Positions 3,001 through 41,200 of a stretch of 58,068 bases of DNA are shown here, piece by piece. The notes below the pieces were generated by a model. The model worked only from the letters and a program-made list of their open reading frames with translations, searched no databases and was not told where the DNA came from. The translations under genes and the position numbers were made by a program. Source of the DNA: a virus; IMG/VR virus record IMGVR_UViG_3300006947_000012, positions 1 through 58,068 of that record; one strand, 5' to 3'. The number at the start of each line of letters is the position of its first letter. Within the stretch, counting starts at the first letter, position 1.

Positions 3001-6000
3001 CTGTGTTCCGTCGAACTCATTAAGTAGTTCTACATTATCTTCAACCTCCAATTTAAACTCAGTAGCTCTTCTAGTAAATTCACCAGAAAGATCATTCTGT
3101 ATGTGGTGCATTTGAGGGTCTATAGTATTCTTAATATTAAGATTTGTAGCAATGATAAGTTCTTGGGCCCTAGAAGAAGCAGTGTATAATGCTTTATTAT
3201 AGTCTTCAGAGTCCATACCATTCTCCTGTCTTATATCCATATAAACTTCATCGATAGTCTCTCCTTGAGCTTGGACATAATCTAATACCTCAACATTGTA
3301 TTTATTACTACTAACAAATTCTTTATATTCTTCAACTCTATTTGGGTTAACTATTATAGCTCGTCTAGAGCCTTCAGCAGGTTCAGTAGCTAATTTTAAT
3401 CTTAATCTTTCTTTAAAGTTTCCTGAAATACCATAAACTCCTTTTGCCCCTTCCATAAAAGGATTTGGAGTATTTACCTTAACTACAATTTGCTCATTAG
3501 ACATATCATTTAAATTACGTCTAAATATGTCTTGGAAGTTTGCAATAGCAGGATTATCACTTCTGTATATACTTGTAACAGGAGTAATTAATGTGTTCAT
3601 ATTAGGTAAAGTCCCAAAAGATCTAAGTGGCGACACGCTCTCACTAGTAATTTGAGCTTCATCTCCAAGCATTAGAACCTTAAGTATAGATTCTTTAGCT
3701 TCTTTACGTCTTTCATTTTCTTCTCTTATCTTATTCTCTATAGCCTCATACTGAGCATAAGATAGTGAAGGAGCCTCATCTATAACTAGTACTTGTAATG
3801 CTTGTATTGAATCCTCATCTAACTCTAAAAATGTATTTATTGTGTTAGGAATCTCAATACCTAACGCTTTATTAATTGTTGCGGAGGATGCATCACTGTG
3901 GCCCATTGCGTATATTCTATTAGCAGGTATACCAGCAGTAGCCATTGCCCAAGGTAATACAACTTTACTCTTACCTGTACCGGCAGCTCCCTGCATAAAC
4001 GCTGAAACATTTGCTATATCTCCTATATTTTTAATCTTAGACGCTAAAAATACACTTAACTCTCGTATTGCATTTAATTGCTGTTTAGTTGGGGTAAACT
4101 CTTCGTTATTTAAAGCAGTCTTCTCATTATGTAAATGTGTAGGTATATCAAACTCAGAGTTTAATATTTTAGATAGCTTAGTGTCTGCTACATACTTAAT
4201 ATGTTGAATAAGAATATCAGTTAATACTTCTTTAGAGATAGTGTGTTGAGATCTGTCTTCAACTTGTAGCTCATCTAATAATCTATATGCATCTAAATGA
4301 TCTTCATATCTCCATAATGCAGAGTTATTATTAAATAAATCTAGGTCCTCATTTACACTTGCTATTTGTTGTAGTAACCCTCTTAACCCTGACTCAGGAT
4401 TCTTAAGATAGTTATCTAAAGCAATATCTTGATCTATATCAGACTCAATAATACCTTTAACACTCTCTAAAGCAGCTTTCGCTCCTAACTCAAGATTCTC
4501 ATAGAATACTTTCTTGGCTTTTGATTCAGACTCTAAAGCTTTTTTTACTAGATGTACAGCAGTTAAAGCTACCGCCATTTTATCTGTCATTCCTGTTAGC
4601 ACTCCTTCAGGTAATACTTGGCCTTCTTCTAGTTGCGTTGCAGCTAAACTTAACTTACCTAATACCTCATCTCCTAATAATTTATGTATAAGACTTCCTC
4701 TACTATTATTATCTAGAGGTAGAACATCAGAACCTAATCCTATTGACTCTAAAGTTTGTCTGTATATTCTATCTTCAAATTCATATTGTTGTTGCTCTCT
4801 GTTTGCGGAATTCTTTTTAATTTCCATTAACAATCCTTGAGCCATTACATACCCTGCAGCTAAGTCTTCTGTAATAGCCTCAAAATAATCTTTTTTATCG
4901 TTTGGAGCTTCTACTGTTCTACGTTTAAAGATATTCATAAACAGCTCTATCTTATCAGAAACTTGCTGAGCATTATTCACATCACTATAGTCTGGTATAT
5001 TGTCTAGCTGGCTTTTGATATACTCTAAAGGATTTAAAACTTCTAAAGCTGCCTCTTCTAGAACTCTATCTCTATCAAAAGTAGCAAATACTTCATCTCT
5101 TAAAGTTATAGAATCTGGATCTTCAGCAGCTCGGGTTAGTAGTTTTTCTGCGCTATCTAAAGTATCATTAGATTGAGCTAGTTTAGCCTCTGCTTTACCT
5201 TGCTTCTCATTTAACTCCTTCATATCATGATCTACGCCGGCTCTTTCAACTAGTCCGTCTAATCTTGATTGCTGTAAAGTATCTAATGGTTTAAAATCTT
5301 CTAGGTCTCTTAACTCTTGCAGGTCTTTCATGTCCTGTTCCGTTAAAGGCTCATGAAATAATTCTTTACCTACTGTAGGGTCAAATCCTTTATTAGTTAA
5401 CTTCTCTTTATTTTCTTTTATTTGTTGTATAATATGCTTTTGTTCATTAGCATCTCTAACAATCTCATCAGCCATTTCAACAATCTCTTCTAAAGTTGCA
5501 GGATCTAACTTCGAGTTATTATCTAATATGTCTGGTAATATTTCTCCTAATCTTTTTTTACCGTACTTAGTTATATGTTGTACAATACTCCCTACAGTAT
5601 GATGAGATACCAGTCTTCTTAATTGATGCTTTCTCTTACCTTCTCTAGCTATTTCATACTCTCTATGATTCTCATAAGCAATTTTCTCACTCTCAATCTT
5701 AAGATCTTTTAAAGTAACTTGTTCAGCCTCTGTTAAGTCTTCTCTTGCCTGCATCTCAGAAATTACTTTACCTAAATTTTGAATTCTTCTAAGCTCCCCT
5801 GTGTCCCAAGCCACTCCTTTATACATAGTTTTCTCATTACTAGCAATATCATTATTCTCTTGCTTTGCTTGCTCTATGTCTTGTACATTCTCTTCTATAT
5901 CTTGGTCATATGGTGTACCTAGATTTCTGTCCTTCATTTTCTGTTGAAGAGTTTCTTTTTGAGTCTGAGATAAATTTCCTTCTTCCTGCTTCTTTTTTAA

Positions 6001-14142: not shown

Positions 14143-17100
14143 TTATCTATATGTTTTACGTTTTGACGCACCTGCAGAATGCAAAGTTACTAAAAATTTT
14201 CCAGTATTACTAGCAATATCATTATTTCTATTCTGCACTAGTCTTACAGCTATCCATTTATCTACAAACTTTCTTCTCGTATTCCAAACTTTAGAACCTA
14301 AAGAGTTTAATTGTATATTAATATCTGCTAATAATAAATTTGTTGATAAGATAGGGTTGTCTATAGGAGCATCTAAAGTAGTATTAGCTGTCAGAGTGCT
14401 TTGATTTCTATCGTCTCTAAACCCGTTAACATACCAAGTTCTTTCTTTTCTTCTTACATTTGCAGTAGACCAAAGTTGATTATTAGTTCCTTCAGGTTCT
14501 ATCAGAGTAGCTCCCCCTGTTAATTGATGACTATTATACACATAGAAATAATCAAATCCTGAATCATGCACTTCATGCCTTACTCCGCCCTCATCGTTAG
14601 ATGGCACCTCTATGTCTGCAGTATAGTAAAAATTAGAATATAATTTATTATCATCAGGCGCTTCATTATCTATATATTCAAATACTATATCATAGTCCAC
14701 GCCATAGTATCTTCCTATATTATAAAGAACACCCGCACTATTTCCTTTAGGTAAATTTGCAAGAGAACTACCTCTTTCATGGTTATGCTCATACAACTTT
14801 GACCCAAAAAAGCCGTAAAAATTAGTGGTAGTGTAAAAATACGTGTTAGGGTAAAAATCGTGCAGAGATCCCCATATTTTTAAAGCTGGATAATAAGATA
14901 TTGTCCAAGATGCATCTTCAAAATAAATAGCATCATCCCAATCAATAAGATCGGCAGTGTCAGTATTTATAAAGTGCCTAGAGTACTCGTTCCAATCTAA
15001 ATCCCCTGCTGTATGCAAACTTATAAATGCATCTGTAGGCATTTTATCTAACTTAGTTAAAATAAATCTAGCATACTTAGGGTCCCATGTAGATATTATA
15101 CCTATACCTATAGTGGGTATATCTATATTAGATGGAAGTCCATACTCCAATAACGACCAAGATGTTAATCTTCTTAGTAAAAACTCTTTTAACCCGTAGT
15201 TAGAGACTTCCTCTAACTCCTTAGCTAGTAAAAAAACTTTACCTGTCATCTTATCTACGGAAAAATGTCCATACCTACTTGTAGCAACACTAAACTGTGA
15301 TAAAGTACCACCGTACCCTCTGTCCGTGAACAACACTTCGTCTGGCTCATTTTCAAATAAATCACCACTCCCAAGAGCTACTGATGAAGTATCTGATAGG
15401 TTAAGATCTTCTTTACCTTTTGTTTTAAGTAGGGATCTTTCTAGAATAGGTAGCAGTACATTATCAAAAGACGATAGGTTCCATAACTCTCCTCTGTTTC
15501 TAGGCAGGTCCCTGTATTGTTCTGGCTTATACGTTCTAAAATTATCTACAAGACCTTCCCGGTTGTGCTTAACACTTCTAATAATTCTTGTTGGATAATC
15601 CGCTATTGAGGCTGTTACGTTCAGGTGATCAAAAGGTATAGTACCTTTTATGTCATTTAACGAATCCATAGTTGTATCATAACTAAAAATTCTAAAGGAG
15701 TTTACAAAATTATTATTTTGTTTAGAAGACTCGCGTTTAACAAGAGGATAAAAATCTTCATTATCATTTCCTAGAGAATATCTTTGGGAGATATTTACTT
15801 TAGACTCTGTTATATACATCTGCTGACAGTAATCTGTAGATGTTTTTCCTGAAACCGCTCCTAAATAGCCATAAGAATAATGTGTGTACCACTCTGTTGC
15901 TGGCCAAAGACCGCTCTGAGGATGCTTCCAACCCTCTTGCTGCATATGTCGTGTTTCTGTATAGTAATCTATAAATGTATCCCCTCCAAATATGATGTCT
16001 GCATTACTGGCTGGTGTAGGGGTGCCTGTCATATTAACATAAGAAGAAGAATTTATAGTAGACACATCATGAGTATATCCTGTGTATATTAAACTGTACT
16101 GACTGCTAAAAGGAGAGTATACATCTGGAATGTATTTATGCACTCCACCATATGCATGATATTGAGCTATATGGCTGTGCTGGTCATATGACTGGTATGT
16201 ATCATTACTGTGGGTTGTAGCGCGCCATTGCTCAGCAATTACCCATCCTTCCTCCCATGTATTCCCACCTTGACCGTTAGGTTTACCTATAGATAACGCA
16301 TAAGTAGTTGTACCACAACCTCCAACAGTAAAATTCTGCAGACCTACATCCCATGCGCCATTACCAAATAAATCATAATCCTGTAGACCAACATTAAGAG
16401 CCGCGTTAACCATGTCCTTAGTAAAACATGAAGTTGCAGGACCACAATTCATATACGTAGCTCGGTTTTGAGTTTGGTATACATTTTTAACTGTCCTACC
16501 CATATCTAAAGACCATATAGGTCTATTAGCGTACAAAAAAGTAGTTTGACATCCTCCTATATTATTTACGTTTGTGCTTGTACCAGGAATAGAAACAGTT
16601 TCATTACTCTTTATATTATATTTTGCTTTTAATGATCTTATATTAGGAACTTTGCCTGGCGCTATACCAACAACATCATAGTCAGGCCCTGGTAAACTAT
16701 TACCAGTTTTTGATGCATAGTGCTCATAAGGCATACGCGTCCAGTCTAAAAACCAAGATATTTTATTAGTACTAGAATAATCTAGGCCTGTCTCATCACT
16801 TCTAAGAATAGTTACTCCTGCCATACGGCCATTGGTATCATCTGTCCTTCCTATCCTTAAATGTCTAGTTATTTTTATATAATCTATCCCAGAAATATCA
16901 GGATCACTCACCCGCATGTGAAGACCGTTAAAAGTCATACACTCTCCTTTAGCAGCCCAATCATCTCTGTCCAGATACCCACTCCACTTAGTAGTTTTAA
17001 CGTCATTGTACGGGGCGTGGGTACAGCTAAAAGGCGTTGCGACTACAGATCCTCCTAAATCTGGCGGGGACTGTATCATATATTCTAAACAAGGTAGTCC

Positions 17101-19068
17101 AAAAGTAGCAAAATTTAAATAGCACGGACCGTTAACAGGAACATTAGATATTGAGTTATCGTAACTGCTGTAAGTGTCGTAAGTGGTCTCTGAATAACCC
17201 CATGTAGAATTAGACGGCCCACTATGATAGCTGGGGGTAAAATTAAACACTCCTGTGTCTACAACAGTAGTATTGATCTCCTCTCGTTTAGCGTAGTATA
17301 TTTTAAAAGCTTTTACTTTACCTATTAATTCATCAGGAATAGCTACATTCCTAACTTGAAACCCTAAAGGATTCATTACAGTATCACTATTATTAGAATT
17401 AGTTGTTGCGTATATATGGTTAGATCCTTCCTGAAGAGCTGATGAAGGAAAATGGTGGTGCCTTACAGGTGTATTACGTAAATCTTCCTGCGCTACCCCG
17501 TCCTTATCCCGGGCCACATAATTAATATTGTTAGGGTAGTCTTCTCCTTCGTTTTCCCAGTACCCCATACCTGTAGCATTACCCCAAGCACTTCTTGTAG
17601 TAACCTTACCTATCATAGGGTTATTTAGATCGCCACTTTCAGTAGTAGCAGGGATTGGAGTACTACCATTAACATCGTCTACACGATGATTCTCTTTTAA
17701 GGTTGTTCCTGAAGTTGAATGTATAGCATAAGCAGCTGGTATATTATCCGCACTCCTACCTGGTATATGATACGCTACAGTTTCATTACCATCATTCATA
17801 ACCCAAGTTATATAAAAAGCATAAACCTCGTCTCTTTGGTATCCTTTGTATTTAGTAGTATGCTCAGCGTCCCTGCCAGGAGCGGATAGTACATCCCACT
17901 CTACACTTTCTCCATTAATAATAGTAGCATCGTCAAAAGATGGATTTGCTTCAGCAGCGTGTATTGTTATATTGCAGGCATATCGTTGATAATTAATATC
18001 TGGTTGTTTTCTAACTAAATTACCCCAGTATAATACATCATCTACCTGAGCAACTGTTTTAGCTCTAATGTAACTTTGTCTAGGAATTTGTATATCATCT
18101 AACAACTCTGTAGAACTCACCTCTGTTCCTGTATAAGTTATATTTAAATTCTGCCCACTACTATATGGTTTATCAGACAGTCGTATAGCAGTATAGGATC
18201 CGTTAACATTTAGTATAATAGCGGGTCTTATAAATGCATAATTAGGATCTAAATTAGATACATCCCAAGATATACCCTTACCTGTAGGAATTCCCCCTTC
18301 ATTTCCACCGTAAGAACTTCCTGGGTAGGCAGCTGCAGATCCTCCTGAAGATACAAACCCATTAGTAGTTGTTCCAGTATACCCTACATCTACCTTAGCT
18401 TGATTTTCACTAGCTACATTTATATATGTAGTGTTAGACACATTAATATAATTAGTTGGAGTTCCTTCTAAGTTTACATATGCTACTGCCAAAGTATATG
18501 CCCCTGTAAGAAGCCCTCCCCCAATAATAGTTTTAAAGTCTATAATGGGGATTTTATCCACGTTTGGGAATACGTACAGAGTAGCCAAATCAAAAACAGT
18601 ACCTGTAGTTGGTGGGTTATACAACCGTATAAATTTCATCTCTGAATTATCATCAGTCCAATATATAGAAACCTTATTAGTGGAATCTATTTTATATGTT
18701 CCCTGTATAGGGTGCGTTCGTCTAAAGTTTAATGATTCTTGACCTGAAGAAGCTTGCGCAGAATCGTTAAATATTATAGTATAAGAATTAGATACCACAT
18801 CAAATAAACCAATTTCAGAAGTACCTATGGCGGTAACAGGATTTGTAAGGTCTGGTCTAACTGAGAATATAACTACAGTATCATCATGAAGAACAATAGA
18901 CCCCACAGCGTGATACCCATTAGATATATTTGCTACCTTTATAGTTCCGTGCTCAGACTGAATTGATCCTGAATTAGGTGGTATAACTATATTTTTAGCA
19001 TATCTCCAAGTTCCTACAGGTTGATCTACAGGGTTGGTATCTCTATGCATTCCTTTTAAAAATTTCAT
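14143..19068 (-). CDS. Muzzle-like tail hub / stabilisation protein, 1641 aa
   Basis: The N-terminus (MKFLKGMHRDTNP, then GTWRYAKNIVI and a SEHGT segment) matches the pattern of phage tail hub or stabilisation proteins of podoviruses, in which an R-x-A-x-N element and an E-x-G element follow within the first 60 residues. These are the crAss-like muzzle and the T7 gp12 / P22 gp10-like tail proteins. The rest is beta-rich, with many Tyr, Trp, Asn and Gly and few charged helices, as expected for a large beta-propeller-type tube protein. It is longer than the P22 or T7 counterparts but in the range of crAss-like muzzles. It follows three neck or ring-like genes with 1-30 base spacing and precedes the cargo genes. 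I infer that it forms the distal part of the short tail channel. Confidence 0.8.
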   Translation of the reverse strand: MKFLKGMHRDTNPVDQPVGTWRYAKNIVIPPNSGSIQSEHGTIKVANISNGYHAVGSIVLHDDTVVIFSVRPDLTNPVTAIGTSEIGLFDVVSNSYTIIFNDSAQASSGQESLNFRRTHPIQGTYKIDSTNKVSIYWTDDNSEMKFIRLYNPPTTGTVFDLATLYVFPNVDKIPIIDFKTIIGGGLLTGAYTLAVAYVNLEGTPTNYINVSNTTYINVASENQAKVDVGYTGTTTNGFVSSGGSAAAYPGSSYGGNEGGIPTGKGISWDVSNLDPNYAFIRPAIILNVNGSYTAIRLSDKPYSSGQNLNITYTGTEVSSTELLDDIQIPRQSYIRAKTVAQVDDVLYWGNLVRKQPDINYQRYACNITIHAAEANPSFDDATIINGESVEWDVLSAPGRDAEHTTKYKGYQRDEVYAFYITWVMNDGNETVAYHIPGRSADNIPAAYAIHSTSGTTLKENHRVDDVNGSTPIPATTESGDLNNPMIGKVTTRSAWGNATGMGYWENEGEDYPNNINYVARDKDGVAQEDLRNTPVRHHHFPSSALQEGSNHIYATTNSNNSDTVMNPLGFQVRNVAIPDELIGKVKAFKIYYAKREEINTTVVDTGVFNFTPSYHSGPSNSTWGYSETTYDTYSSYDNSISNVPVNGPCYLNFATFGLPCLEYMIQSPPDLGGSVVATPFSCTHAPYNDVKTTKWSGYLDRDDWAAKGECMTFNGLHMRVSDPDISGIDYIKITRHLRIGRTDDTNGRMAGVTILRSDETGLDYSSTNKISWFLDWTRMPYEHYASKTGNSLPGPDYDVVGIAPGKVPNIRSLKAKYNIKSNETVSIPGTSTNVNNIGGCQTTFLYANRPIWSLDMGRTVKNVYQTQNRATYMNCGPATSCFTKDMVNAALNVGLQDYDLFGNGAWDVGLQNFTVGGCGTTTYALSIGKPNGQGGNTWEEGWVIAEQWRATTHSNDTYQSYDQHSHIAQYHAYGGVHKYIPDVYSPFSSQYSLIYTGYTHDVSTINSSSYVNMTGTPTPASNADIIFGGDTFIDYYTETRHMQQEGWKHPQSGLWPATEWYTHYSYGYLGAVSGKTSTDYCQQMYITESKVNISQRYSLGNDNEDFYPLVKRESSKQNNNFVNSFRIFSYDTTMDSLNDIKGTIPFDHLNVTASIADYPTRIIRSVKHNREGLVDNFRTYKPEQYRDLPRNRGELWNLSSFDNVLLPILERSLLKTKGKEDLNLSDTSSVALGSGDLFENEPDEVLFTDRGYGGTLSQFSVATSRYGHFSVDKMTGKVFLLAKELEEVSNYGLKEFLLRRLTSWSLLEYGLPSNIDIPTIGIGIISTWDPKYARFILTKLDKMPTDAFISLHTAGDLDWNEYSRHFINTDTADLIDWDDAIYFEDASWTISYYPALKIWGSLHDFYPNTYFYTTTNFYGFFGSKLYEHNHERGSSLANLPKGNSAGVLYNIGRYYGVDYDIVFEYIDNEAPDDNKLYSNFYYTADIEVPSNDEGGVRHEVHDSGFDYFYVYNSHQLTGGATLIEPEGTNNQLWSTANVRRKERTWYVNGFRDDRNQSTLTANTTLDAPIDNPILSTNLLLADINIQLNSLGSKVWNTRRKFVDKWIAVRLVQNRNNDIASNTGKFLVTLHSAGASKRKTYR

Positions 19069-21112: not shown

Positions 21113-22243
21113 TTATAAATTAGTTTGTAAATAGCCTTCATATCCTCGTAGTTTATTCCATATATGTGCTTGTCCAGTTCTTTTAGCTTCATACCCCATC
21201 ATTTTATGCCATGCATCATTACCGCAAATAGATGGTATAAATCTTACTTTTATTCCACGGTACTCATTAACCATCTCTTTATGTTTATGTCCACAATGAA
21301 CTTCTCTATTAGTTGTTCTTGAAAACATCATAGGCTCTTCAGTTGCCATTATAAGTGGCATTTCTGCAGGTTTTTCTTTGTCTCCGTGTGTAAACATAAT
21401 CATATTTGTTCCATATTCATAATACTTTCTAGAGTTATAGTTGTTGTCAACTGTTACTCCTTCATGTTTCAAAAAGAAAGCTCGTAAAAACTCTCCTGAA
21501 TAAAACATTCTTTCATAGTCATGATTCCCTTGTATAACAATCACATCTACAGGCGCTATATCAGACAGAAAATTTATTGCTCTTACCATTAAACTGCAAT
21601 ACCCTACAAATGTTTCTTGCCATTCTGCGCCATCATGTTGAGGAGTACCTTTAGTTGTAGCTCTAGAGTACCCTTCAGAATTCATACCATCATTTCCTAT
21701 TGGTAAAAGTATTCTATCTATATTTAATCCTGATGCTTTATTCATAAGATCTTTGATCGTATTCATATAAGCCTCTTCTGATTGCTCTAGTGTTTGTCCG
21801 TCTATCTTACCATAATGAATATCTGGCAATGAAACTTCGCACACTATAGGATCTTCTACAGCTTCATACTTCTTCTCAACTACAGGACTATATTCTTTAA
21901 GAGTTTTAAGCATTTCTTCTTTAGCCTCTTTCATTATATTATCCTCCCCTTTGGTAACTACAGAAAATCTGTTATCTCCTTTAATTGTCTGCCAAAACTT
22001 TACAGACTTAACATCATCTTCTGCTATACCGTTACTATCTAAGAACGCTTTAAACTCATTGATTTCAGATGTACTTATATTATCTATATCAAAGTCGTTA
22101 CCTTTTGCTTCTATTCTTGCTTCTTTTAAAGCATTTCTACATGCTTCAACACTACAGTCTAATCTTTCAGAAAGACGTTCAGCACCTTCTTTAAGGTAGC
22201 CAGGCCTGTCTTTCAAGAAGGCCTTGATCTGATCTTTAGTCAT
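21113..22243 (-). CDS. Calcineurin-like metallophosphoesterase, 376 aa
   Basis: All metal-binding motifs of the calcineurin-like phosphoesterase fold are present in order: DIH (D141, H143), GND (183-185), GNHD (239-242), FTHGD (H286) and GHKH (318-321). These ligands coordinate two metal ions and support phosphodiester or phosphomonoester hydrolysis. The first 120 residues are helical; residues about 20-45 (ERLDCSVEACRNALKEARIE) look like a helix-turn-helix and may bind nucleic acid. There is no signal peptide, so it acts in the cytoplasm or is packaged. It lies between the holin and the neck genes, an unexpected place for a nuclease or phosphatase. The substrate is not evident. Candidates are DNA ends, nucleotides or signalling molecules. 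Confidence 0.85.
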   Translation of the reverse strand: MTKDQIKAFLKDRPGYLKEGAERLSERLDCSVEACRNALKEARIEAKGNDFDIDNISTSEINEFKAFLDSNGIAEDDVKSVKFWQTIKGDNRFSVVTKGEDNIMKEAKEEMLKTLKEYSPVVEKKYEAVEDPIVCEVSLPDIHYGKIDGQTLEQSEEAYMNTIKDLMNKASGLNIDRILLPIGNDGMNSEGYSRATTKGTPQHDGAEWQETFVGYCSLMVRAINFLSDIAPVDVIVIQGNHDYERMFYSGEFLRAFFLKHEGVTVDNNYNSRKYYEYGTNMIMFTHGDKEKPAEMPLIMATEEPMMFSRTTNREVHCGHKHKEMVNEYRGIKVRFIPSICGNDAWHKMMGYEAKRTGQAHIWNKLRGYEGYLQTNL

Positions 22244-22261: not shown

Positions 22262-22654
22262 CTACTTTTTAACTTTCTCCAGCGATCTCCCACCAAAGTA
22301 AGCCCCTATTACAGTGATCAAAACTAATTGTAATAAGTCAACCCAGCTAGCTTTTACATCAAAAGCTATAACTCCTGCATCAATAAATACTAGTAGCATA
22401 GTCGATACTACTAGAAAGATTAATACTAAAGGTCGTATGTTTTTACTAAGCCATGAATCAGAAGCCATATCCATCTTCCAACGCTCAGTTACTTGTTTTT
22501 GCATTTCTGCTTCATAACCCATTACTAGGTCTTTAATTTTTGCCTCAGCTGCTAGCTTCTCTTCTTTAGACGTATGTAAGTTATCTATAACTCCACCCAC
22601 GCTTTCTACAAGCTTAGCTGCTCCACCTGATAATAATTTTGTTAGTATACTCAT
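22262..22654 (-). CDS. Putative holin, 130 aa
   Basis: A small protein with an N-terminal amphipathic region (MSILTKLLSGGAAKLVESVG), a charged helical linker with KEEKLAAEAK, and two strongly hydrophobic segments at about residues 70-92 (RPLVLIFLVVSTMLLVFIDAG) and 103-121 (WVDLLQLVLITVIGAYFGG). It ends in the GRSLEKVKK tail frequent in phage and gene-transfer-agent-type holins with three membrane elements. It lies two genes downstream of the M15 peptidase, a normal lysis-module distance. I infer that it permeabilises the inner membrane to release the endolysin. Confidence 0.75.
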   Translation of the reverse strand: MSILTKLLSGGAAKLVESVGGVIDNLHTSKEEKLAAEAKIKDLVMGYEAEMQKQVTERWKMDMASDSWLSKNIRPLVLIFLVVSTMLLVFIDAGVIAFDVKASWVDLLQLVLITVIGAYFGGRSLEKVKK

Positions 22655-23230: not shown

Positions 23231-23686
23231 TTAAATAACCATGTATTTAGTTTTACCTTTTTCTTTATATGCTTTTAAACATCTGTTTCTATTGTCAATC
23301 TCATTGACATAACTAATGTGTACCCAGTTAGGATTTTTATCATCACCAAACTCCCAGATCATCTGATCAAAGTTTAAGTTCTCTTTAATCCACTCGTACA
23401 TTTCCGCATTAGTCTTCTTACAACCTCCATCATCTATGTCCATAGCTTGACCTTTACAGTGTTGAGATGATGTTGATCCACCAATAGCTTTGTTCAAAGC
23501 TGGGCCTCTATAAAAACTATTAATTCTAATAGGTCCTCCAACCCACTCTCTTAAAGGTTCAAATATCTGCTCTGCAACTTCCTTCATGTTAGATAGCTCG
23601 AATTGACTTGGCTTATTCTCTAAACCTCTTCTTGTTGCTGTTGTGCTAAATGTTCCTTCTTTATCGCTTATGTGTTTGCTAATCAT
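23231..23686 (-). CDS. M15-family peptidase endolysin (D-Ala-D-Ala carboxypeptidase type), 151 aa
   Basis: The peptidase M15 zinc site is visible: SSQHCKGQAMDID gives H76 and D83, WEFG gives the probable catalytic E112, and NWVHIS gives H123. FYRGPALNKAIGG before it is the usual substrate-cleft segment. The protein is the length of a stand-alone M15 catalytic domain with no cell-wall-binding domain and no signal peptide, so release probably depends on the nearby holin. It would cut peptide bonds in peptidoglycan stems or cross-bridges. Its start overlaps the end of the T9SS-type gene by 8 bases, so the two are likely translated from one message. Confidence 0.88.
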   Translation of the reverse strand: MISKHISDKEGTFSTTATRRGLENKPSQFELSNMKEVAEQIFEPLREWVGGPIRINSFYRGPALNKAIGGSTSSQHCKGQAMDIDDGGCKKTNAEMYEWIKENLNFDQMIWEFGDDKNPNWVHISYVNEIDNRNRCLKAYKEKGKTKYMVI

Positions 23687-25892
23687 TGTTTATTCTTTTT
23701 TCAATTGTACCGTCATTGTAGATATAAAACAAAATTTGATTTTTATTTTCTTTTGTTTGTCTGCCTAATAAATCTGTAATCATTATTAGCTCTTTTTTAA
23801 CTTGTGCTCTTCTTAATAGTGGGCCAGCATAAGTGCCTTCACAGTGATTATATGTCAGCTGACAAATTGTATCCCAAGAATTGTTACAACAATAATCATC
23901 CACTGATATTACCCAAGAGTAGCAAGGATCATTCATCCAATAAGGATTTCCTGGGCCAGTCACACAACCAGCATCATACTTACAATTATTATCACTAACG
24001 TTAGCAATACTCGAGTAGTTATAGGCGTTTGGGTCCAAACAGCCTTCAACAATTGATATACAAGAGTTATTTTCTGTATTAGCAAGTGAGTCATAGTTAA
24101 GAGCTGACGTATCCATACATCCATATGCAAACTCAATGCAACTAAAATCTTCTGTATTAGACAGGGGATCATAGTTAAGCATAGAAGGATCCGTGCAACC
24201 AAATATAAAAGGAGTACAGCTGCTATTGTTAACATTTGCTAAAGGGTTATAATTATACATTGTGCTATCAGTACAGCCATATATAGGTAGTACGCAGGTA
24301 AAGTCGTCTGTATTGCAGCTATCACAATAATTTAAAGCTATTGGGTCAGTACATCCATAAGCAAATGCTATACAAGAGTTATTATCTGTGTTTGCTAGTT
24401 GTACATAGTTAAACATTGTAGAGTCTGTACATCCAAATATAAAAGGAATACAAGTTCCATTGTTAGTGTTAGCGGTAGGATCGTAGTTAAACTGAGTTGG
24501 GTTTATGCATCCATATATAACAGCAATACAACTAGAGTCATCTGCGTTAGCTGCAGGGTCCCAATTAAATGCCAGAGTATCTGTACATCCATAATTAACC
24601 CCAATACAACTACCGTCGTCTATGTTGGCCAGTGAATCGTAATTTATAGCTATTGAACTCATACAGCCATAAACAACAGCAATACACTCAGCGCTAGTGT
24701 TTGCCTGAGGATTGTAGTTAAAAGCCAAAGGCTGCATACATCCTAAGATCACAGGAATACATCCACCATTATCTATATTAGCAAGTGAATTATAATTAAA
24801 TGCCGTAACGTCATCACAACCCCAAACAGCAGGCGTTAAGCAGCTTCCATCACTTGTGTCAGCCGTAAAGCCTTGCGTGTAGTATTCTAAGTAAGCAGGG
24901 CTAGTACAGCCAAGAACGTAAAAGCATTGAGTGTTTGTGTTAGCTGTGTCTACATAGTTAAGAGCTAGTGGATCCATACAACCAAAGACTCTATCAATGC
25001 AATAGTTACCGCAATAAGTTGATACAGTACGTTTAAACAATGGTTGTATAAAAGGCGCTGCAACCTCTATCATATTCATGCCTAATGGGTTTGTCAGTTT
25101 AAATCCACAATGAGCAGCTGACTGCTGTCCTTGTGAAGATATTGAAAACTTAAACGATACTTCTTGCGGTGATCTTAAGTTTATACTGTACTCTTGCGCG
25201 TAAGCAACTGTATCTAATGTAAAATTCCAAACACTGTCACCTTGAGTTACCTCTAGGTTTGATGTCGGCGCCCAACCATCTCCAATTAAATCTGTTAATG
25301 TTAATATGAATTCACAAGAAGGTACTAAAGACATAGTGTTAGCTAGAGAATCATAATTATACATTGTAGAATCAATACAACCAAGCACTATTAAAGTACT
25401 ACACGACCCATCGCTTGTATCAGCCCTAGGATTAAACTCTACGTAAGAAGAGTCCATACATCCAAATACAGGCGGGCAAGGAGCAGATAAAATAACATGA
25501 GATGTATCATTACCAAAAGCAGCGTCTGTCCCAGTAACTATAGTGTCATAACATTGCACTACATAGTAAGAACCATCTAGCCCACCCCAAAGAGCCCCAT
25601 TTAAACCATCTCCGTACGAATCATATATTGTGAATACTAAAGGGCCAGGAGGTAAACATCTTTGTTCTTCAACAACTCCATAGTCAGGTTCTGAACCATA
25701 GTTTTGCCCGTAAGTTATTAAAGTACCACTAGTGTCAGTTACAGTCCAGTACGTTTCACTTTGATATTGATCAAGATTTATAATTATTGTTGTTTGAACA
25801 CAAGTCTGTGCAGAAGTTACTATAGGTAATAAAGCTAATAATAATAACCAAACTAGTAAAGTTATCTTTTTCATTTTTTGTATTTTTTTCAT
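23679..25892 (-). CDS. Exported cysteine-repeat protein with T9SS type A C-terminal sorting domain, 737 aa
   Basis: I chose the ATG at 25892 rather than the GTG at 25904, because it directly follows the upstream stop; a second ATG at 25874 is also possible. A signal peptide is clear (MKKITLLVWLLLLALLP, then SAQ). An N-terminal domain with YDSYGDG (about residues 90-105) is of a kind seen in Bacteroidota surface proteins. Fifteen units of GC-x-D-x-x-x-x-NY-x-x-x-ANT-x-x-x-SC follow, 13 of them nearly tandem at 26 residues each, giving regularly spaced cysteine pairs. The last 46 residues (KKELIMITDLLGRQTKENKN, then FYIYNDGTIEKRI) match the type A sorting domain of the type IX secretion system. 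I infer Sec export, then T9SS transport to the cell surface. The neighbours are envelope and lysis genes. Confidence 0.85.
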   Translation of the reverse strand: MKKIQKMKKITLLVWLLLLALLPIVTSAQTCVQTTIIINLDQYQSETYWTVTDTSGTLITYGQNYGSEPDYGVVEEQRCLPPGPLVFTIYDSYGDGLNGALWGGLDGSYYVVQCYDTIVTGTDAAFGNDTSHVILSAPCPPVFGCMDSSYVEFNPRADTSDGSCSTLIVLGCIDSTMYNYDSLANTMSLVPSCEFILTLTDLIGDGWAPTSNLEVTQGDSVWNFTLDTVAYAQEYSINLRSPQEVSFKFSISSQGQQSAAHCGFKLTNPLGMNMIEVAAPFIQPLFKRTVSTYCGNYCIDRVFGCMDPLALNYVDTANTNTQCFYVLGCTSPAYLEYYTQGFTADTSDGSCLTPAVWGCDDVTAFNYNSLANIDNGGCIPVILGCMQPLAFNYNPQANTSAECIAVVYGCMSSIAINYDSLANIDDGSCIGVNYGCTDTLAFNWDPAANADDSSCIAVIYGCINPTQFNYDPTANTNNGTCIPFIFGCTDSTMFNYVQLANTDNNSCIAFAYGCTDPIALNYCDSCNTDDFTCVLPIYGCTDSTMYNYNPLANVNNSSCTPFIFGCTDPSMLNYDPLSNTEDFSCIEFAYGCMDTSALNYDSLANTENNSCISIVEGCLDPNAYNYSSIANVSDNNCKYDAGCVTGPGNPYWMNDPCYSWVISVDDYCCNNSWDTICQLTYNHCEGTYAGPLLRRAQVKKELIMITDLLGRQTKENKNQILFYIYNDGTIEKRINND
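23975..24985 (-). repeat. Array of thirteen 78-bp imperfect repeats (26-residue GC-x-D...SC unit)
   Basis: The repeats encode units such as GCTDTLAFNWDPAANADDSS followed by CIAVIY. Cysteine pairs, the NY and the ANT-like core are constant and the remainder drifts. Two further diverged units lie nearer the start of the gene (about 25320-25465). At DNA level copies differ at many positions, so the array is not freshly amplified. Confidence 0.85.
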
Positions 25893-25893
25893 T

Positions 25894-26256
25894 TTAAAAA
25901 TCACTCATTAATAGGTTATCTATTTCTTGTTGCACTTCCTCTTTCTTTGCCATCATCTTAAAGCTAAGGTCAGCTTGAAACCTAGCAACCTCTTCTCCAT
26001 CTTTAAATATTATTATAGTTGGTATAGCAGCTATTTTATGTTTTACTTGCATTTTAGGAATAGCTGCAATATCTACATATGATATTGTTTGACAATCATC
26101 AAGGTCCATCACCCACCCAACAGCATTATCATTATTCCAACTAGCATTAAACTGTGCTACAGATATTTGACCAGAAGCTTTACCACATATACAAACTAAA
26201 AAAAGCACTAATAAATAGATGCCTAGTATTTTCCAAGAAACATCTATATTCTTCAT
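25894..26256 (-). CDS. Exported thioredoxin-fold protein lacking CxxC, 120 aa
   Basis: The N-terminus has a signal peptide (ILGIYLLVLFLVCICG, cleavage likely after KASG). The mature part follows the thioredoxin order: QFNASWN where the family has F-x-A-x-WC-x-x-C, then YVDIAAIPKM, then IAAIPTIIIFKDGEEVARF, which holds the cis-proline and the beta-hairpin of the fold. Both active-site cysteines are absent; one cysteine remains in DLDDCQT. It therefore probably cannot catalyse disulfide exchange and may act as a binding or chaperone module. It lies two bases upstream of the cysteine-rich T9SS client and overlaps the stop of the 93-residue membrane protein, which suggests a joint envelope function. 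Confidence 0.7.
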   Translation of the reverse strand: MKNIDVSWKILGIYLLVLFLVCICGKASGQISVAQFNASWNNDNAVGWVMDLDDCQTISYVDIAAIPKMQVKHKIAAIPTIIIFKDGEEVARFQADLSFKMMAKKEEVQQEIDNLLMSDF

Positions 26257-26537
26257 TATCTGTTATATAATTTATCCTCTATTCTTTCTAGCGTTTTCTT
26301 CATTTCATCTACGTCAGCTTTTGTATCCATAATAGTTTGCCTAATCATCTTATCCTTCATATCAAACTCCATACGAGTAACTTCTGGGTCTGGTGCAATC
26401 GGTAACTCCATAGCTTTTGCTATATCAGCCTGCAACATAAACCACATACTAACCAAAGTAAATATTAAAGCCGCTATTCCTCCTAATGTTTTTATACTTA
26501 GTTTTAACGTTGTGTCTTCGTTTAGTTCTTTTGCCAT
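26256..26537 (-). CDS. Small one-pass membrane protein with coiled coil, 93 aa
   Basis: A single hydrophobic segment (about residues 17-35, LGGIAALIFTLVSMWFML) follows a short charged N-terminus, and residues 55-93 are a heptad-like charged helix (FDMKDKMIRQT, then MKKTLERIEDKL). This is the topology of inner-membrane spanins and of small accessory holins. The gene is the second member of the envelope/lysis cassette and is coupled by overlap to the thioredoxin-like gene. I infer a lysis-related or membrane-anchoring role without proof. No outer-membrane spanin partner with a lipobox is evident nearby. Confidence 0.55.
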   Translation of the reverse strand: MAKELNEDTTLKLSIKTLGGIAALIFTLVSMWFMLQADIAKAMELPIAPDPEVTRMEFDMKDKMIRQTIMDTKADVDEMKKTLERIEDKLYNR

Positions 26538-26538
26538 G

Positions 26539-27609
26539 TTAAAATATTACGTAATTTACTCCAAATTTAAAATCATACCAGGTTCTATTCCAATATTTAT
26601 TATACTTTCCTTCTACAAAATATCCTAAATTTTTACTTTGTTTTATTCCATATATTAAACCAGCAGAATAATCATACCATTGATCATCCTCTATATAGTT
26701 ATGATATGAGAACTCACTACCATCATTATAATGCCAAGGCATTAAATTACCCCATGCGTGTAACCAAGTGTGTTTAGAATATTTATAATAGTCAAACCCA
26801 ATAACAATTGAATGCTGTATCTGATCCTTTAAAGCACTCCTTTTCTTTTCAGAGTAATCAGATAATACTTGTGGAATAACTACTTCCTCCCATACTTGTG
26901 CGTTAGTAGCAACTATATCACCATCCGGGTCTTTATATTCATTTGCGTATACATCTACTGTATACCCTTCCATTATAGCTAAATACGTATAATGAAGACT
27001 TCCATTATCAAGTATCCAATCTTCTAATGGATTGTAGCCATAAGGTTCTGATAACCTGTGCGCAGCCCCCACACTAAAAGCTAAGTTTTTATCTTTCTTA
27101 ACTCTCCATCTTTCTGATAACTCAAAATATTCTATATCAGCAAAACCGTCTTTTAGATATTCTACTTTTGCAGCAAATTCATTCATACACAAATCACCTA
27201 CACAATCATCGTCAGAACTATACCTAATAAAGTGATGTTGATTTATATAATCTACTCCTTGTTGCCTAGAATAATCTACTTCAAATAAATATTCAAACCC
27301 TTGAACTTTACCTACTGTAGCATTATCTGACCAAGACTCTTCTGTTCCATTATAAAAAGTATTAGCTTTATTTTCATATCCAAATCTAGCTATTTTTCTA
27401 ATACCAAAAGTAACAGAATAATCATAAGGAGTTACTATATTTTCTTGCTCTAATTCTCCCGAAGACACAGAAAAAGTTTTAACGTCTGACAACGAAGTCC
27501 CACCATTTACAGCCCCATATATTGTAGAAAACTTTAATTGTTTAGCTAACGTTTGGGCATTACTTATAGTTGAAAAACTTAAGAGTAATATAATAATGAA
27601 ATTTTTCAT
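26539..27609 (-). CDS. Predicted outer-membrane beta-barrel protein, 356 aa
   Basis: A typical signal peptide (MKNFIIILLLSFSTISNAQ) is followed by about 335 residues with alternating aromatic and polar strands such as HEWLHAWGNLMP-like and YDYSAGLIYGIKQSK segments, and a C-terminal strand ending KFGVNYVIF. A terminal aromatic residue and Tyr/Trp/Asn-rich strands are the marks of Gram-negative outer-membrane barrels. The pattern GYFVEGKYNKYWN and WYDFKFGVNY looks like paired terminal strands. Its ATG overlaps the stop of the upstream fibre gene. I infer insertion in the host outer membrane during infection, where it could exclude superinfecting phages, alter receptors or aid lysis. A virion role is less likely because of the signal peptide. 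Confidence 0.7.
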   Translation of the reverse strand: MKNFIIILLLSFSTISNAQTLAKQLKFSTIYGAVNGGTSLSDVKTFSVSSGELEQENIVTPYDYSVTFGIRKIARFGYENKANTFYNGTEESWSDNATVGKVQGFEYLFEVDYSRQQGVDYINQHHFIRYSSDDDCVGDLCMNEFAAKVEYLKDGFADIEYFELSERWRVKKDKNLAFSVGAAHRLSEPYGYNPLEDWILDNGSLHYTYLAIMEGYTVDVYANEYKDPDGDIVATNAQVWEEVVIPQVLSDYSEKKRSALKDQIQHSIVIGFDYYKYSKHTWLHAWGNLMPWHYNDGSEFSYHNYIEDDQWYDYSAGLIYGIKQSKNLGYFVEGKYNKYWNRTWYDFKFGVNYVIF

Positions 27610-35211: not shown

Positions 35212-38200
35212 TTAAAAATCAAAATTAGAATTATTTGCGTTAAATATTTGAGAAACTACTGCTTCCATCTGTGCTGGTGTTAATTGATCTCCTACTGAAC
35301 ATGTAGGACAAACTTCATCTAAATAGCCTGTAAAAGAATCTTGTATATCAGCTAGTGAAAAACATATATTTAAATTTTGTAACATATGTTTAATCATTAT
35401 TGTTAACCAAACCTGTCTTACATCTAAAACGTTAGAAGCTAGAGCTCCGTGTATTTTAGACAAAGCTTCGTTTGCTAATGTTCCTGGGCACTCAACTAAA
35501 TCAGCTAAAGCAGAATCATCAGTAACCCATACATTGTTTGTTATAAATCCAGTATTATCTGTAGCAGAGACACATGGACCTTTCTTTGTGTATGTAGTAT
35601 TAGGAAATCCTTCATCATCATAGCAAGCACCACAATCTAAAGGAACTTCGCAAGGAGCAGTTACATCTGATATACAAAACAGAGAACTACCTGATAGCTG
35701 AACTGTAGTTCCTATTGTAGGGCAACTGTATCCTATAGTTGTACCTATTTGTATTTCTATATTATCATAGGAAGAACTGCTTAAAGGGTTATTTGCATTA
35801 TCTGTTAATATATTAGAAGTTAAATCTCCTATAGTAAAAGTAGGACTTAACATAGCAGCTGCAAAGAAAGCACCTGCTTGCGCTCCAAACCCTAGTTTAT
35901 TTGGGTACACTTCAAAAGCTAAAAATGCATCAGTGCTAGTTGTATTCATAGCTTGAAACGATAGTGAATGTAAGCCTGAAGGTAGTACTACAGGAAATAA
36001 ATTAACATAGTCTGTATTGTCTGCTATTGTTGTTGCGTTACCAGTAGTTGCATCTAAATGAATATACTCAACACCATCTATATACATTTTAACTTCTTCT
36101 GATCCTGATATAGCTATAATGCTTTCTTGTGTAGTCCCAAAGTTTATCTCTGTTATTACACCAATAAACTCATTTTGTGGTGAGACTGGGAATACTCCAA
36201 CAGTACCGCTATTTCTCCAGATAGCAATTTGATTAAGCCTTGTATTCCAAACATTAGATATAGAATTAACTGCTGTTATGTCTGCTCCAATTAAAGGCCC
36301 AGAAGCATCATTCATTACAAGAAGATTAGATCCTGTAGTTGCAAGATCTCTTATTAACGGTAATGCGTTTACATTAATATTAATAGAAGATGCATAATTT
36401 ACTATACCAGTAAGAACATCGTATGGCCCATATAAAATAGCTCCATTAGAAGCAAAGTTAACTGGTGTAGCTTGCCCTAAATATAAATTAGGTATCAATG
36501 TCCAATAGTCAGGAGTAATAGTGTTAGCTATAATAGGCTCTATTTCAGTACTAATACACTCTCCATTAGTAGCGCTTCCTGGTACTAAATCTAACTCATA
36601 TCCTATAGGGCACACACAATCACAATTAATTGCTCCATATATAGATATTAACCCAAAGATACCATTATCAATTCCGACAGTAGAGATTTGAACACACCCT
36701 GCAGAGTCTTGAACATAAAATCTATATTGAGCACCTAAAAAAGATCCTCCTAAATCTAATGACACACTTACATCTTGTATCATAAAACTAGTAGCTGATG
36801 TTGTATAATGCGTAGCAGCATCAAAGTCAGAATACGTAAGACCTGAGTCTTCAGATATTCCCCATATATTATTATTTAATCCAATACTAGGTATAACTGT
36901 TCCTGTTAAAGTACATTTATCTGGCTCTTGGTCTAAAGGACCTATACCTGTACAATTAGTAAGTCCTGTAAGAGCACTATATACTGGTCCTGATGTAGCG
37001 ACAGCAGAGATAGTATAAGGAGGAGTACCTCCTACTAAATTTAATGATATAGCTCCAGCCGTATCTCCTGGGAATTGGCAATGACTAGTGACACAAGCGT
37101 TTGCGTCTGTAAAATTAGATAAAGGTATTAGCTCTATTTTAGTGCAAGATCCCTCTGTAAATGCTGCTCCAGCGGATAGACCTAAAGTCTGTAAATTAGT
37201 AGTTGGTACCCATGTACCTGACACACTAATTAAACATGACTCAAAGTCAGCGTGGCAGTTGTTATCATAAGAAGATAGCACTGTTTGATCATCAGGATCT
37301 GCGAAGTACTCTGAAGCACATCCGCTACCGTCTCTAACCCATATACTTTTTATACCTCCTAATAATCCTGTAAAAGTATATGTTCCTGTTACAGCTGTAT
37401 ATGTATTACCATTATCAATAGAAACTTCAATAGCTCCATTACCTCCGTGAGTTGTAATAGTTATAGAACCGTCTGGGCAGTCAATACAAGTAGGATGTAC
37501 CCAAGTAATATCATCAATATATACTATTGGATCTTGTAATTCTGTTATTGGAGCTGACACACCACCACAACTATCAGTTACTATACAAGTATATTTTCCT
37601 GGCCATTGTACTGCTGAAAGATCTTGTGTTGTAACACTAGACCATTGTGTGTTTACGTTAGCATGCCCTACTATAGAACATGTATTAGGTAATCCAACGT
37701 ATCCCCATAGATATGTGTATACTACAGTTAATATCTGATTTTCATATGTTCCTAGAGTAGGAGTAAGGTTTATAGATCCATTACACGTATTAACTCCAGA
37801 AGCTCCAAAAGAACTGCAACCACAACAAGTAGGATCAACATGCGTAGTTGTAGCTACAACATTTTGATAGTCAGACGCTAATATAGTAGCAGTATGCAAA
37901 GAATCACATTGCCCTGTACCTCCATTCTCTACTAATTTAATATCCCAAGAACTACCGCCAGTAAACTGCAAATTAGATCCACCTGCTTTATCTCCTCCTG
38001 CTCCTCCTGTTATTTGGAAGTATGTGTTAGACGCAACATTAGAAGTGTCGTAAGCGAGTCCTGTTGAAACAATATTACCTGTTGGTGTATCATAAGCTTG
38101 AACAGATGTTATACTTAAATTAGTACCTGAACTATTTGTTACTTGTTGGTAAGAACCACCACCTGAAGGCTTAATATAAACATCATATGGAAATGTACCT

Positions 38201-41200
38201 GTTGGCGTAGAACTATCTAACATTAATCTTATATTACCGTCAGAACCTCCTCCTGCACACGTAGGTCCTCCGTACATTCCGTACAGTAAATTGTTAGCAG
38301 TAGTATTTGTTGTAGTATTATCAAATATCTTGTTATATTCATAGTTATTAATATCTATAAATATCTCTGCAGAACCAAGACTGATTAATACAAATGTTTC
38401 TGTTGCAGTACAATTATTACTATCAGTAATCACTACAGTATAAGTACCTACAGTTATACTAGTTAAATTTTGACTAGTTGCGCTAGAATTTCCTGACCAT
38501 TGGTATGTATAACTACCACTTCCTCCTGTTGGAGCTAAAGTAATAGACCCACTAGAAGAACCTGCACCACATCCTATATTAGACTGTATAGAATTAGGAA
38601 GAATAGGTCCCGGAACCGTAGCAGCCGTAATAGTTTTAGTAGTTACAGGACACCCAGTCTGATCATTCACAGCAACAATATAATCAAATACACCTGAAGC
38701 TGTGACAACGCTTGAAGTATTAGTAGTAAAAACTACCGCAGGAGCAACAAAAGATGGATCAGTACTTGACCACGAGTAGCTAAAAGGTGGGATACCTGTA
38801 GTAATAAGTGCTGTTACTGTAGTATTACCTCCTGCGCATGCTGGAGCTGCGGTTGATAAATTAAAGGCAGTATTTATAGTTGCACCTATTGTAATAGCAT
38901 TACTCATTATTACACACCCACAACCATTTTTAGCAACCATGTACCAAACTCCTGCAGGCACATTTGTAAAGTAGCTTGACAAAGTAGGTGTAATTAAAGT
39001 ACTGCCATTAATATTAAACGCATCGAATCTATCCAAAGAGTCATTCCATACAAATGGATTAGGATTATCTGTATAAGTGTAAGTAGGCACACCCCCGCCA
39101 CTAGCACAGGTACTCCAACTATTATTGTTACAATTAATATTATCAACGTCAAAACCACTAAGAGTACCACCTAAACCTCCCCCACATCCTACAGGACTAG
39201 TACCTGTTGGTTGTGTGCAAATAATTCCTCCATTGCCTGCTGTGTATGTTTTAGATACATTTTGATCTACAACTCCTAATTGGTAGGTTGAAAAGTCAAA
39301 ATAATAATTCACTGAGTATGTGCCTGGTGCAATACCTGCTAGTACTGTACCAGCAGAGCCCGGACCGTGCGTAGCTAGTATAACACCAGTAACGGAAAGA
39401 AATTCATAATACCCAATTGTATCACTTCCCATACCAGTAACCTCAAGCTTCCCTGTTTGTAGAGGTGAAAGACCATTTGGCATCACACCATTAGCATCAG
39501 CTAGATTTCCCCATGATACTCCCTGCAGCCATTCATATGGATCAGAAACGTTACAAGGTCCCTTCATTAGTGAAAGCCCCATAGTAAGCCCTGTACACGC
39601 TACAGTTATAGTATCAGTAATTGCACAACTATCATTTAAAATGCTTGAAACATTTAGGTCCCCTATAATTGAATCAGAAGCATTTCTATGAAATACTACT
39701 GTATAATCTGTAGAAACTAATGTTTGTGTGATTGGAATGAATAGAAGTATAGATGCATTGTCTCCATTACTAGTAACTCCTCCGCAATTACCACTAAGGC
39801 AACTTGCACTACCGCCATATGAATTTAAAAGTGGTATAGTAGTTCCATTACTATTAGTTACAGTGTTAGATGAAGTCCATGGAATAAAATTTAATAGTAT
39901 TTGTGTGTCCCCATTAGGTAAATGTTCAAAAACTGTACCTATTAAGTCTCCAGAATTAGAATCAGAACCACCACTTACATTAGTTGCGTCTAGAGTTATT
40001 GCATGCATTACTGATGAATTACAAGGACCAGAAGTATTATTCCAACTGTTAGAAGTAAAAAGAAATTCATTACCAATGCTTCCAACTACATAATTATCTA
40101 ACCTAAATTCACATGCCCCATCCGAGAATGAAGTGTGTGCCTCAAAGTCAAATGATGTTCCTCCTGGTATATTTATAAGTGTGTACGAAGGAAGAGACGT
40201 AATAGGAATACTACCTGGAGATGCACTGCAAGTGCAAAAAACGTCGTTTGAAGAATTAGGAGTCTGAGGGTTTCTATATTCCCAAACATTACCACCTAGA
40301 TAATCAACGTAGACAACGCTGCTAGTGTTATAATTTTTTAATTCAAAATCCACCCATGGAGTAGCAGGACCTGAAAATGACATAGTCAATTGACCGTCAT
40401 TTCCCGCACAGGTAGCCTGTGAATTCGTTATTGAACTACCAATGGCACAAGTAGGTATATAGTTTGAATTATATATCATCCCATTACCTGTTTGCATTGC
40501 CCAATTATTCTTATGTTTAGCAGTAGGAGCACTTGTTTGAATAGCTTTAAACCCTGAGTTAAGACGCCACATTAAATAGTCAGAGTTTGCATTTACATCT
40601 CCCCAAAGTACAGCTCCAGTGTTGTGATTTACATTTTTTACAAATTGGAAAACTTCGCGAAATCTATCAACTGCTGGAACAGGCTTATTATTATAAAAAT
40701 AAGTTAGCCCAACAGCAGCATCAAAAACATGGTATACTCCTATATACCTAAGATGCGCCACAGCGTCTGTAAGTCCGTTCGCACCAGATGTTTTAGGAAG
40801 ACCATTAAATACTCCAGGAGTGGTCGTGTCATTAATATCATAAGTTGTTACTGCGGCTATAGGACTTTTAGAATTAGATCCTTGTGTAGTATTATTAGTA
40901 ATTACCTCAAAAAAGTACCTAGCAGTAGAGTTATATCTTGCGTGTCCAGCACTGTTTAAATAAGTTGCGTGATAAGGCCTAGCTTCGTATCGAACTGCCC
41001 AACTATCATGAGGGTTAGAAGAGTCTAATAATACAGAGCCATCAAAATTAATTCTCCCGTCAAATTCAAACCAACATCCTTGTTGGGAACCTGTATTTGC
41101 AACGTAAGAATTACCTGATCCAGACTCAAAACTTCCGTACACAGGAGGAGTATTTGAATCACTAATCCAAAAATCAAATCCTGTATATTGTATAGGTAAT

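Follow-up and report, generated by a model that had tools for sequence, protein, structure and literature searches.

A conserved crAss-like phage protein with a short C-terminal sorting tail as a probable client of the host type IX secretion system

Does a phage send one of its own proteins out of the infected cell, and by what route? The question is raised by a gene at 23679–25892 (minus strand, like the module, lysis, portal and head genes given below) in a viral DNA stretch of 58,068 nucleotides, positions 1–58,068 of IMG/VR record IMGVR_UViG_3300006947_000012, hereafter the window. An initial annotation, made from the sequence alone, read the gene product as a client of the type IX secretion system (T9SS) of Bacteroidota, with a signal peptide, cysteine repeats and a type A sorting tail. 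Our computational analysis supports export of this client by Sec and then by the host T9SS, with a probability of about 0.85, and delivery outside the cell is hardly less probable; the tail, however, is a short one that the curated T9SS models do not recognize.

The client comprises 737 amino acids counted from an ATG at 25892, the likely start codon; the frame is open from a GTG at 25904, and the stop codon ends at 23679. Sequence and hydropathy place a Sec signal peptide, MKKITLLVWLLLLALLPIVTSA^QT, at 25809–25874. It is followed by an N-terminal beta-sandwich-like domain (25476–25805), modeled by AlphaFold2 (AF2) with a predicted local distance difference test score (pLDDT) of ~55–87 and differing between phages, and by a second beta-rich domain (25011–25319, pLDDT ~75–90). 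Cysteine repeats of the form GC..D...NY...AN....SC occupy 23982–25463, two before the second beta domain and 13 after it; exactly 15 GC-x(14-22)-C units were counted, whereas 2,000 composition-preserving shuffles averaged 1.2 and never exceeded 6. A conserved CC..WD..C domain (23835–23966), near-invariant in the homologue alignment (A4), precedes the short C-terminal sorting tail KKELIMITDLLGRQTKENKNQILFYIYNDGTIEKRINND (23682–23801), which has three predicted strands and matches a profile of bacterial tails. The motif stretch TDLLGRQTKENKN...FYIYNDGTIEKRI sits at the C-terminus. Signal peptide, repeat number and tail motif were thus all as initially annotated.

The client frame is very probably translated, since purifying selection acts on the tail: among relatives, the ratio of nonsynonymous to synonymous substitution rates (dN/dS, NG86) had a median of 0.31 and was below 1 in 479 of 483 usable pairs. 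The N-terminus is hydrophobic in 56/56 complete client homologues, signal-peptide calls here and below being crude, and some homologues start with a different segment that is MAM-like (named by sequence appearance only). The whole client matched no family in PHROGs, Pfam or NCBIfam, neither it nor the barrel protein described below matched a sequence in the PDB, and a Foldseek search with its low-confidence model returned only generic beta-sandwich (C2-like) matches.

The tail links the client to a large set of bacterial proteins. A profile built from 22 bacterial tails only recovered the client at E = 1.6e-22 among the 115 open reading frames (ORFs) of the window, the next best scoring 1.5. 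Scanning ~85,000 bacterial and archaeal genomes with the tail profile gave 234 confirmed places, the best 78 of which belong, as labeled, to marine Flavobacteriales or Bacteroidota, save one metagenome-assembled genome (MAG) labeled Rhodobacteraceae. In these loci the tail lies 0–7 residues from the C-terminus on proteins of differing bodies, and the start resembles a signal peptide in 56 of the 71 complete ORFs. A wider sample of 296 Bacteroidota genomes held the short tail in 2 and the translocon protein SprA in 228; two were too few for a correlation test, and one marine Flavobacteriales family was analyzed instead. All 52 of its genomes carry the short tail, in 2–50 copies each, together with canonical tails matching TIGR04183, the type A model, in 20–64 copies each. 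SprA was detected in 44/52, and the genomes without a match may be incomplete drafts (0.8–2.1 Mb). Short tails and SprA also occur together in the cultivable Brumimicrobium glaciale.

The short-tail consensus in a family of small-genome marine Flavobacteriales (G003, G304-G351 and others) reads KxLxKITDLLGRETKxxKNxLLFYIYDDGTVEKRIxxE. Curated T9SS models mostly miss this tail, and automated annotation probably undercounts the secreted proteins of these bacteria. The Rhodobacteraceae-labeled MAG (L150, PARX01000020.1) is probably mis-binned or mislabeled, and a MAG labeled Chryseobacterium gleum TH-08apr19-151 (L089, L097, L106, L120 and L127) groups with the marine short-tail users.

Client homologues were found in 79 viral loci, on partial contigs that include some near-duplicates, and here the short tail proved exchangeable with the canonical one. 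The 56 complete phage homologues divide into 37 with a short tail and 19 with a canonical TIGR04183-type tail, none being tailless; all 12 canonical phage tails sampled matched TIGR04183, the best at 1.1e-12. The clearest case is the pair L026 and L074, which are 94.8% identical in the last 250 residues ahead of the junction; past it, L026 has a canonical tail and L074 a short one. Mapped on a tree of the accompanying barrel, tail type shows 6 changes, of which at least 4 fall on strongly supported branches. The fetched phage loci contained no further T9SS clients outside this client family.

Like Por_Secre_tail type A domains (TIGR04183), the short tail stands at the C-terminus of proteins with a Sec signal peptide, ends in an LG-containing strand and two further strands, and can replace a canonical tail on orthologous phage proteins. 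It differs in its length of ~38–40 residues versus 72, in lacking the YPNP half and in going undetected by the model. Two of the 22 bacterial short tails do reach TIGR04183, weakly (best 3.2e-4). The AF2 model gives the client tail three strands, presumably equivalent to the end of a T9SS C-terminal domain (CTD); in HBP35, the last 22 residues, comprising the last two CTD strands, were enough for export of green fluorescent protein (PMC4804311). Judging by the exchange, then, the client tail is a short T9SS-type tail equivalent in function to TIGR04183 tails, though not a member of that family. The initial inference of a host-T9SS client is accordingly strongly supported by the bacterial-tail profile, the T9SS-bearing users and the tail exchange, but the type A models it named do not match the tail, and the type B alternative fared no better: the NCBIfam scan matched neither TIGR04131 nor any other type B CTD family to client or tail.

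Several observations weigh against export by the T9SS. Neither the client nor its isolated tail matched TIGR04183 (curated cut-off 23 bits) up to E = 10, and no NCBIfam or Pfam T9SS model matched the window tail even at E ≤ 10. A profile–profile comparison of short and canonical tails was not significant (E = 0.18 over 9 columns). The whole-client AF2 model is poor (mean pLDDT 49) except in the C-terminal tail and the two N-terminal domains. Our literature search found no experiment on the short tail, and the string DGTVEKR in no paper. As to the purpose after export, gp232 of Synechococcus phage S-CAM3, annotated as a virion structural protein, and a protein of marine virus AG-345-P14 carry these cysteine repeats too. 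Finally, that the host is a marine flavobacterium is something we infer. Taken by itself, the failure of the type A model would speak for giving up the T9SS reading, but it is overridden by the other evidence.

The gene does not stand alone. A conserved module joins the client to three further genes: a signal-peptide-bearing outer-membrane beta-barrel (26539–27609; AF2 pLDDT 75; VIA Z 13 to OmpG; 63/79 loci), a protein of inner-membrane type with one transmembrane (TM) segment by hydropathy (26256–26537; 69/79 loci), and a secreted thioredoxin-fold protein without CxxC (25894–26256; Pfam Thioredoxin 1.3e-4, just under the cut-off; 69/79 loci). Many of the misses are loci cut at contig ends. 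A single base separates the stop of the thioredoxin-fold gene from the client ATG. The charged tail of the one-TM protein is probably a coiled-coil, going by its sequence. In the window and 68 relatives the thioredoxin-fold protein has strongly conserved FNA.WN and LMSDF motifs, the latter at its end, and the barrel, compared with 56 relatives, keeps 54–78% identity between the window copy and the others, with many invariant polar residues. The barrel is conserved across phages whose structural genes diverge far more. Among 50,697 deposited phage records, no match was found for the barrel, thioredoxin-fold or one-TM proteins, and only the repeats of the client were matched, in cyanophages. We found no paper on a role of this module in phages.

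None of the 57 barrel homologues had a relevant NCBIfam or Pfam match, PorP/SprF and PorV included. The barrel was also compared for a FadL-like fold, as in PorV/PorP-type shuttles: T9SS-translocon chains appeared among many barrels in the structural comparisons (8gl6_F at Foldseek rank 14, 6h3i_F with Z 10.7), and OmpG scored higher (Z 13.1). The fold matches were generic outer-membrane barrels (OmpG, CymA, TamA, BamA), which point to no function.

By its sequence matches, the window is a crAss-like phage (Crassvirales), with a crAss-like major head protein (47244–48662; PHROG 11589, 2e-84) and portal protein (52222–54549; PHROG 6547, 3e-122). The closest annotated homologues of both among the matches listed are from crAss-like phages, at ~30% identity; Flavobacterium and Cellulophaga phages are also listed. 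The window further contains two giant ORFs, one at 35212–43446 (2744 amino acids, no PHROG match) and one at 1–8382 (minus strand, ~2,790 amino acids) that runs off its left end.

In two other phage records, L067 and L022, tblastn matched only one head/packaging-region protein of the window (~22% identity), while the module proteins are 49–68% identical to those of the window and the endolysin and holin 70–82%. Since the module is conserved there despite diverged structural genes, either it is slow to evolve or, more probably, it is passed among crAss-like phages with similar hosts. Crossing to unrelated phages was also considered and had to be narrowed: the PHROG 6681 terminase is still present in two records that lack the PHROG 11589 head protein, and the only one of them tested has the crAss-type PHROG 6547 portal, with a different head-region protein (PHROG 13704). 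Within the 52 genomes of the host-type family, the module barrel occurs in one, on a MAG contig bearing the whole module and a canonical-tailed client, which hints weakly at the short-tail Flavobacteriales as the host group. This contig (G329:C32, L252, module at ~14500–18500) is a provirus or a co-binned phage.

These parts can be assembled into a sequence of events. The signal peptide would very probably take the client by Sec transport to the periplasm, where the host T9SS would very probably recognize the short tail and move the protein across the outer membrane; the tail appears to be a reduced T9SS CTD such as dozens of secreted proteins of marine Flavobacteriales carry. The disulphide-rich repeat stalk would then present the N-terminal beta-domains, which vary, at the cell surface, with the co-encoded outer-membrane barrel accompanying or anchoring it; such display is a reasonably good bet over free release. 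Late in infection, a surface coated or remodeled in this way might no longer offer its receptors to superinfecting phage or to the progeny of the phage itself. Among possible purposes we favor such receptor-blocking remodeling, given that the N-terminal domains are variable, the export parts are retained and the client comes with an outer-membrane barrel, but that superinfection exclusion or receptor blocking is the main purpose is a tentative proposal, rated somewhat under even odds. It is more doubtful that the module amounts to a transferable surface-display kit, in which the client comes with its own receiving or anchoring barrel and dedicated thioredoxin-fold and inner-membrane partners that remodel the infected cell surface.

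The location of the gene raises another option, namely that the exported client, rather than excluding other phages, acts with the barrel and the one-TM/coiled-coil protein to help the outer-membrane step of lysis where no spanins are recognized in the phage. In the window the lysis region named by the initial annotation is real: the client is flanked by the thioredoxin-fold gene and an M15 endolysin gene (23231–23686; Pfam 3.9e-14, PHROG 894 6.9e-33) whose start overlaps the client 3' end, as it also does in L007, L019 and L073, and a holin gene (22262–22654; PHROG 3427 1.8e-30) follows two genes beyond the endolysin. The one-TM protein, with its charged and probably coiled-coil tail, also resembles inner-membrane spanins in sequence. 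Elsewhere, however, the setting does not hold: within the fetched flanks, which are variable, an endolysin homologue occurs in only 29/79 loci and a holin in only 18/79, and the lysis linkage is therefore loose. Spanins, moreover, do not need a large variable outside protein, and N-terminal domains that differ between phages fit binding better than membrane fusion. A lysis role is thus unlikely. Between the holin and the virion structural genes lies a DNA repair exonuclease-type gene (21113–22243; PHROG 704, 4.4e-53).

The client could instead be a virion component, such as a fibre or decoration gained at the cell surface or during release. The repeats shared with the S-CAM3 structural protein and AG-345-P14 point that way, the client gene falls within the late structural region, and the thioredoxin-fold partner could serve assembly. 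Yet the S-CAM3 and AG-345-P14 proteins, alike in their GC..D..A.NY.P.AN....C repeat, have neither signal peptide nor sorting tail, whereas all 56 complete homologues have both. The repeat is therefore portable, and carrying export signals is a trait of its own in the phages described here. Export before lysis would also part the client from virion assembly in the cytoplasm, which makes a virion role distinctly improbable.

A further doubt concerns the tail itself, which might serve another sorting system, of PEP-CTERM-like kind. TIGR04183 and Pfam fail on it, and it is limited to part of the Flavobacteriales, with two occurrences among the 296 sampled Bacteroidota versus 228 with SprA. Against this, the tail is swapped naturally with TIGR04183 tails on otherwise near-identical proteins, has switched type repeatedly, co-occurs with T9SS tails and SprA, shares with the T9SS tails the LG-containing strand and three-strand end (with the two weak bacterial matches to TIGR04183), and has no hydrophobic TM anchor, so that we regard another system as very unlikely. 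The idea that bacterial DNA was binned into a viral contig here, or that the gene is a passenger with no function, can be dismissed almost entirely, for although tail and body are of bacterial type, phage genes flank it in the window, the same module recurs in 79 viral loci, its barrel is found in 1/52 host-type genomes and there with the whole module, and purifying selection and conserved synteny contradict it.

Export through the T9SS is thus the reading we retain, and it has precedents. The initial annotation knew of no described role for a T9SS client in a phage lysis region; phage-encoded T9SS cargo has in fact been reported, while the module is, as far as we found, new. Cryophage likewise carries T9SS-tagged proteins, for which superinfection exclusion or inter-strain competition was suggested (PMC7468147); the cargos there are variable, three in a single cryoconite phage (endoglucanase, GH39, PA14), and bear type A domains, unlike the single conserved client family described here, with no recognized enzymatic domain, a short tail and a four-gene module. 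BACON-bearing crAss-like phages of cluster 2 have T9SS-domain proteins near head genes (PMC6949934), but with BACON domains in place of cysteine repeats, and this module was not part of their description. Type B clients in F. johnsoniae employ co-encoded PorP/SprF shuttle proteins (PMC12618676), also an outer-membrane protein gene beside a T9SS client, and the phage kit would be a viral counterpart of these pairs for remodeling the infected cell surface. Since the phage barrel matches no PorP/SprF family and accompanies either tail type, this parallel is only a hypothesis. New, as far as found, are the unmodelled short tail, its large-scale use in marine Flavobacteriales, the natural tail exchanges and the conserved module.

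With 79 viral loci and a sorting tail in every complete homologue, these results present the exploitation of the host outer-membrane secretion machine by phages as a repeated, selected strategy. They also expose an unmodelled class of short sorting tails, which a marine Flavobacteriales genome of 1.9 Mb may carry on as many as 50 proteins, and the natural tail swaps are ready constructs for locating the signal part of the T9SS domain. If the client does block receptors, superinfection exclusion in the ocean would have a route through the T9SS.

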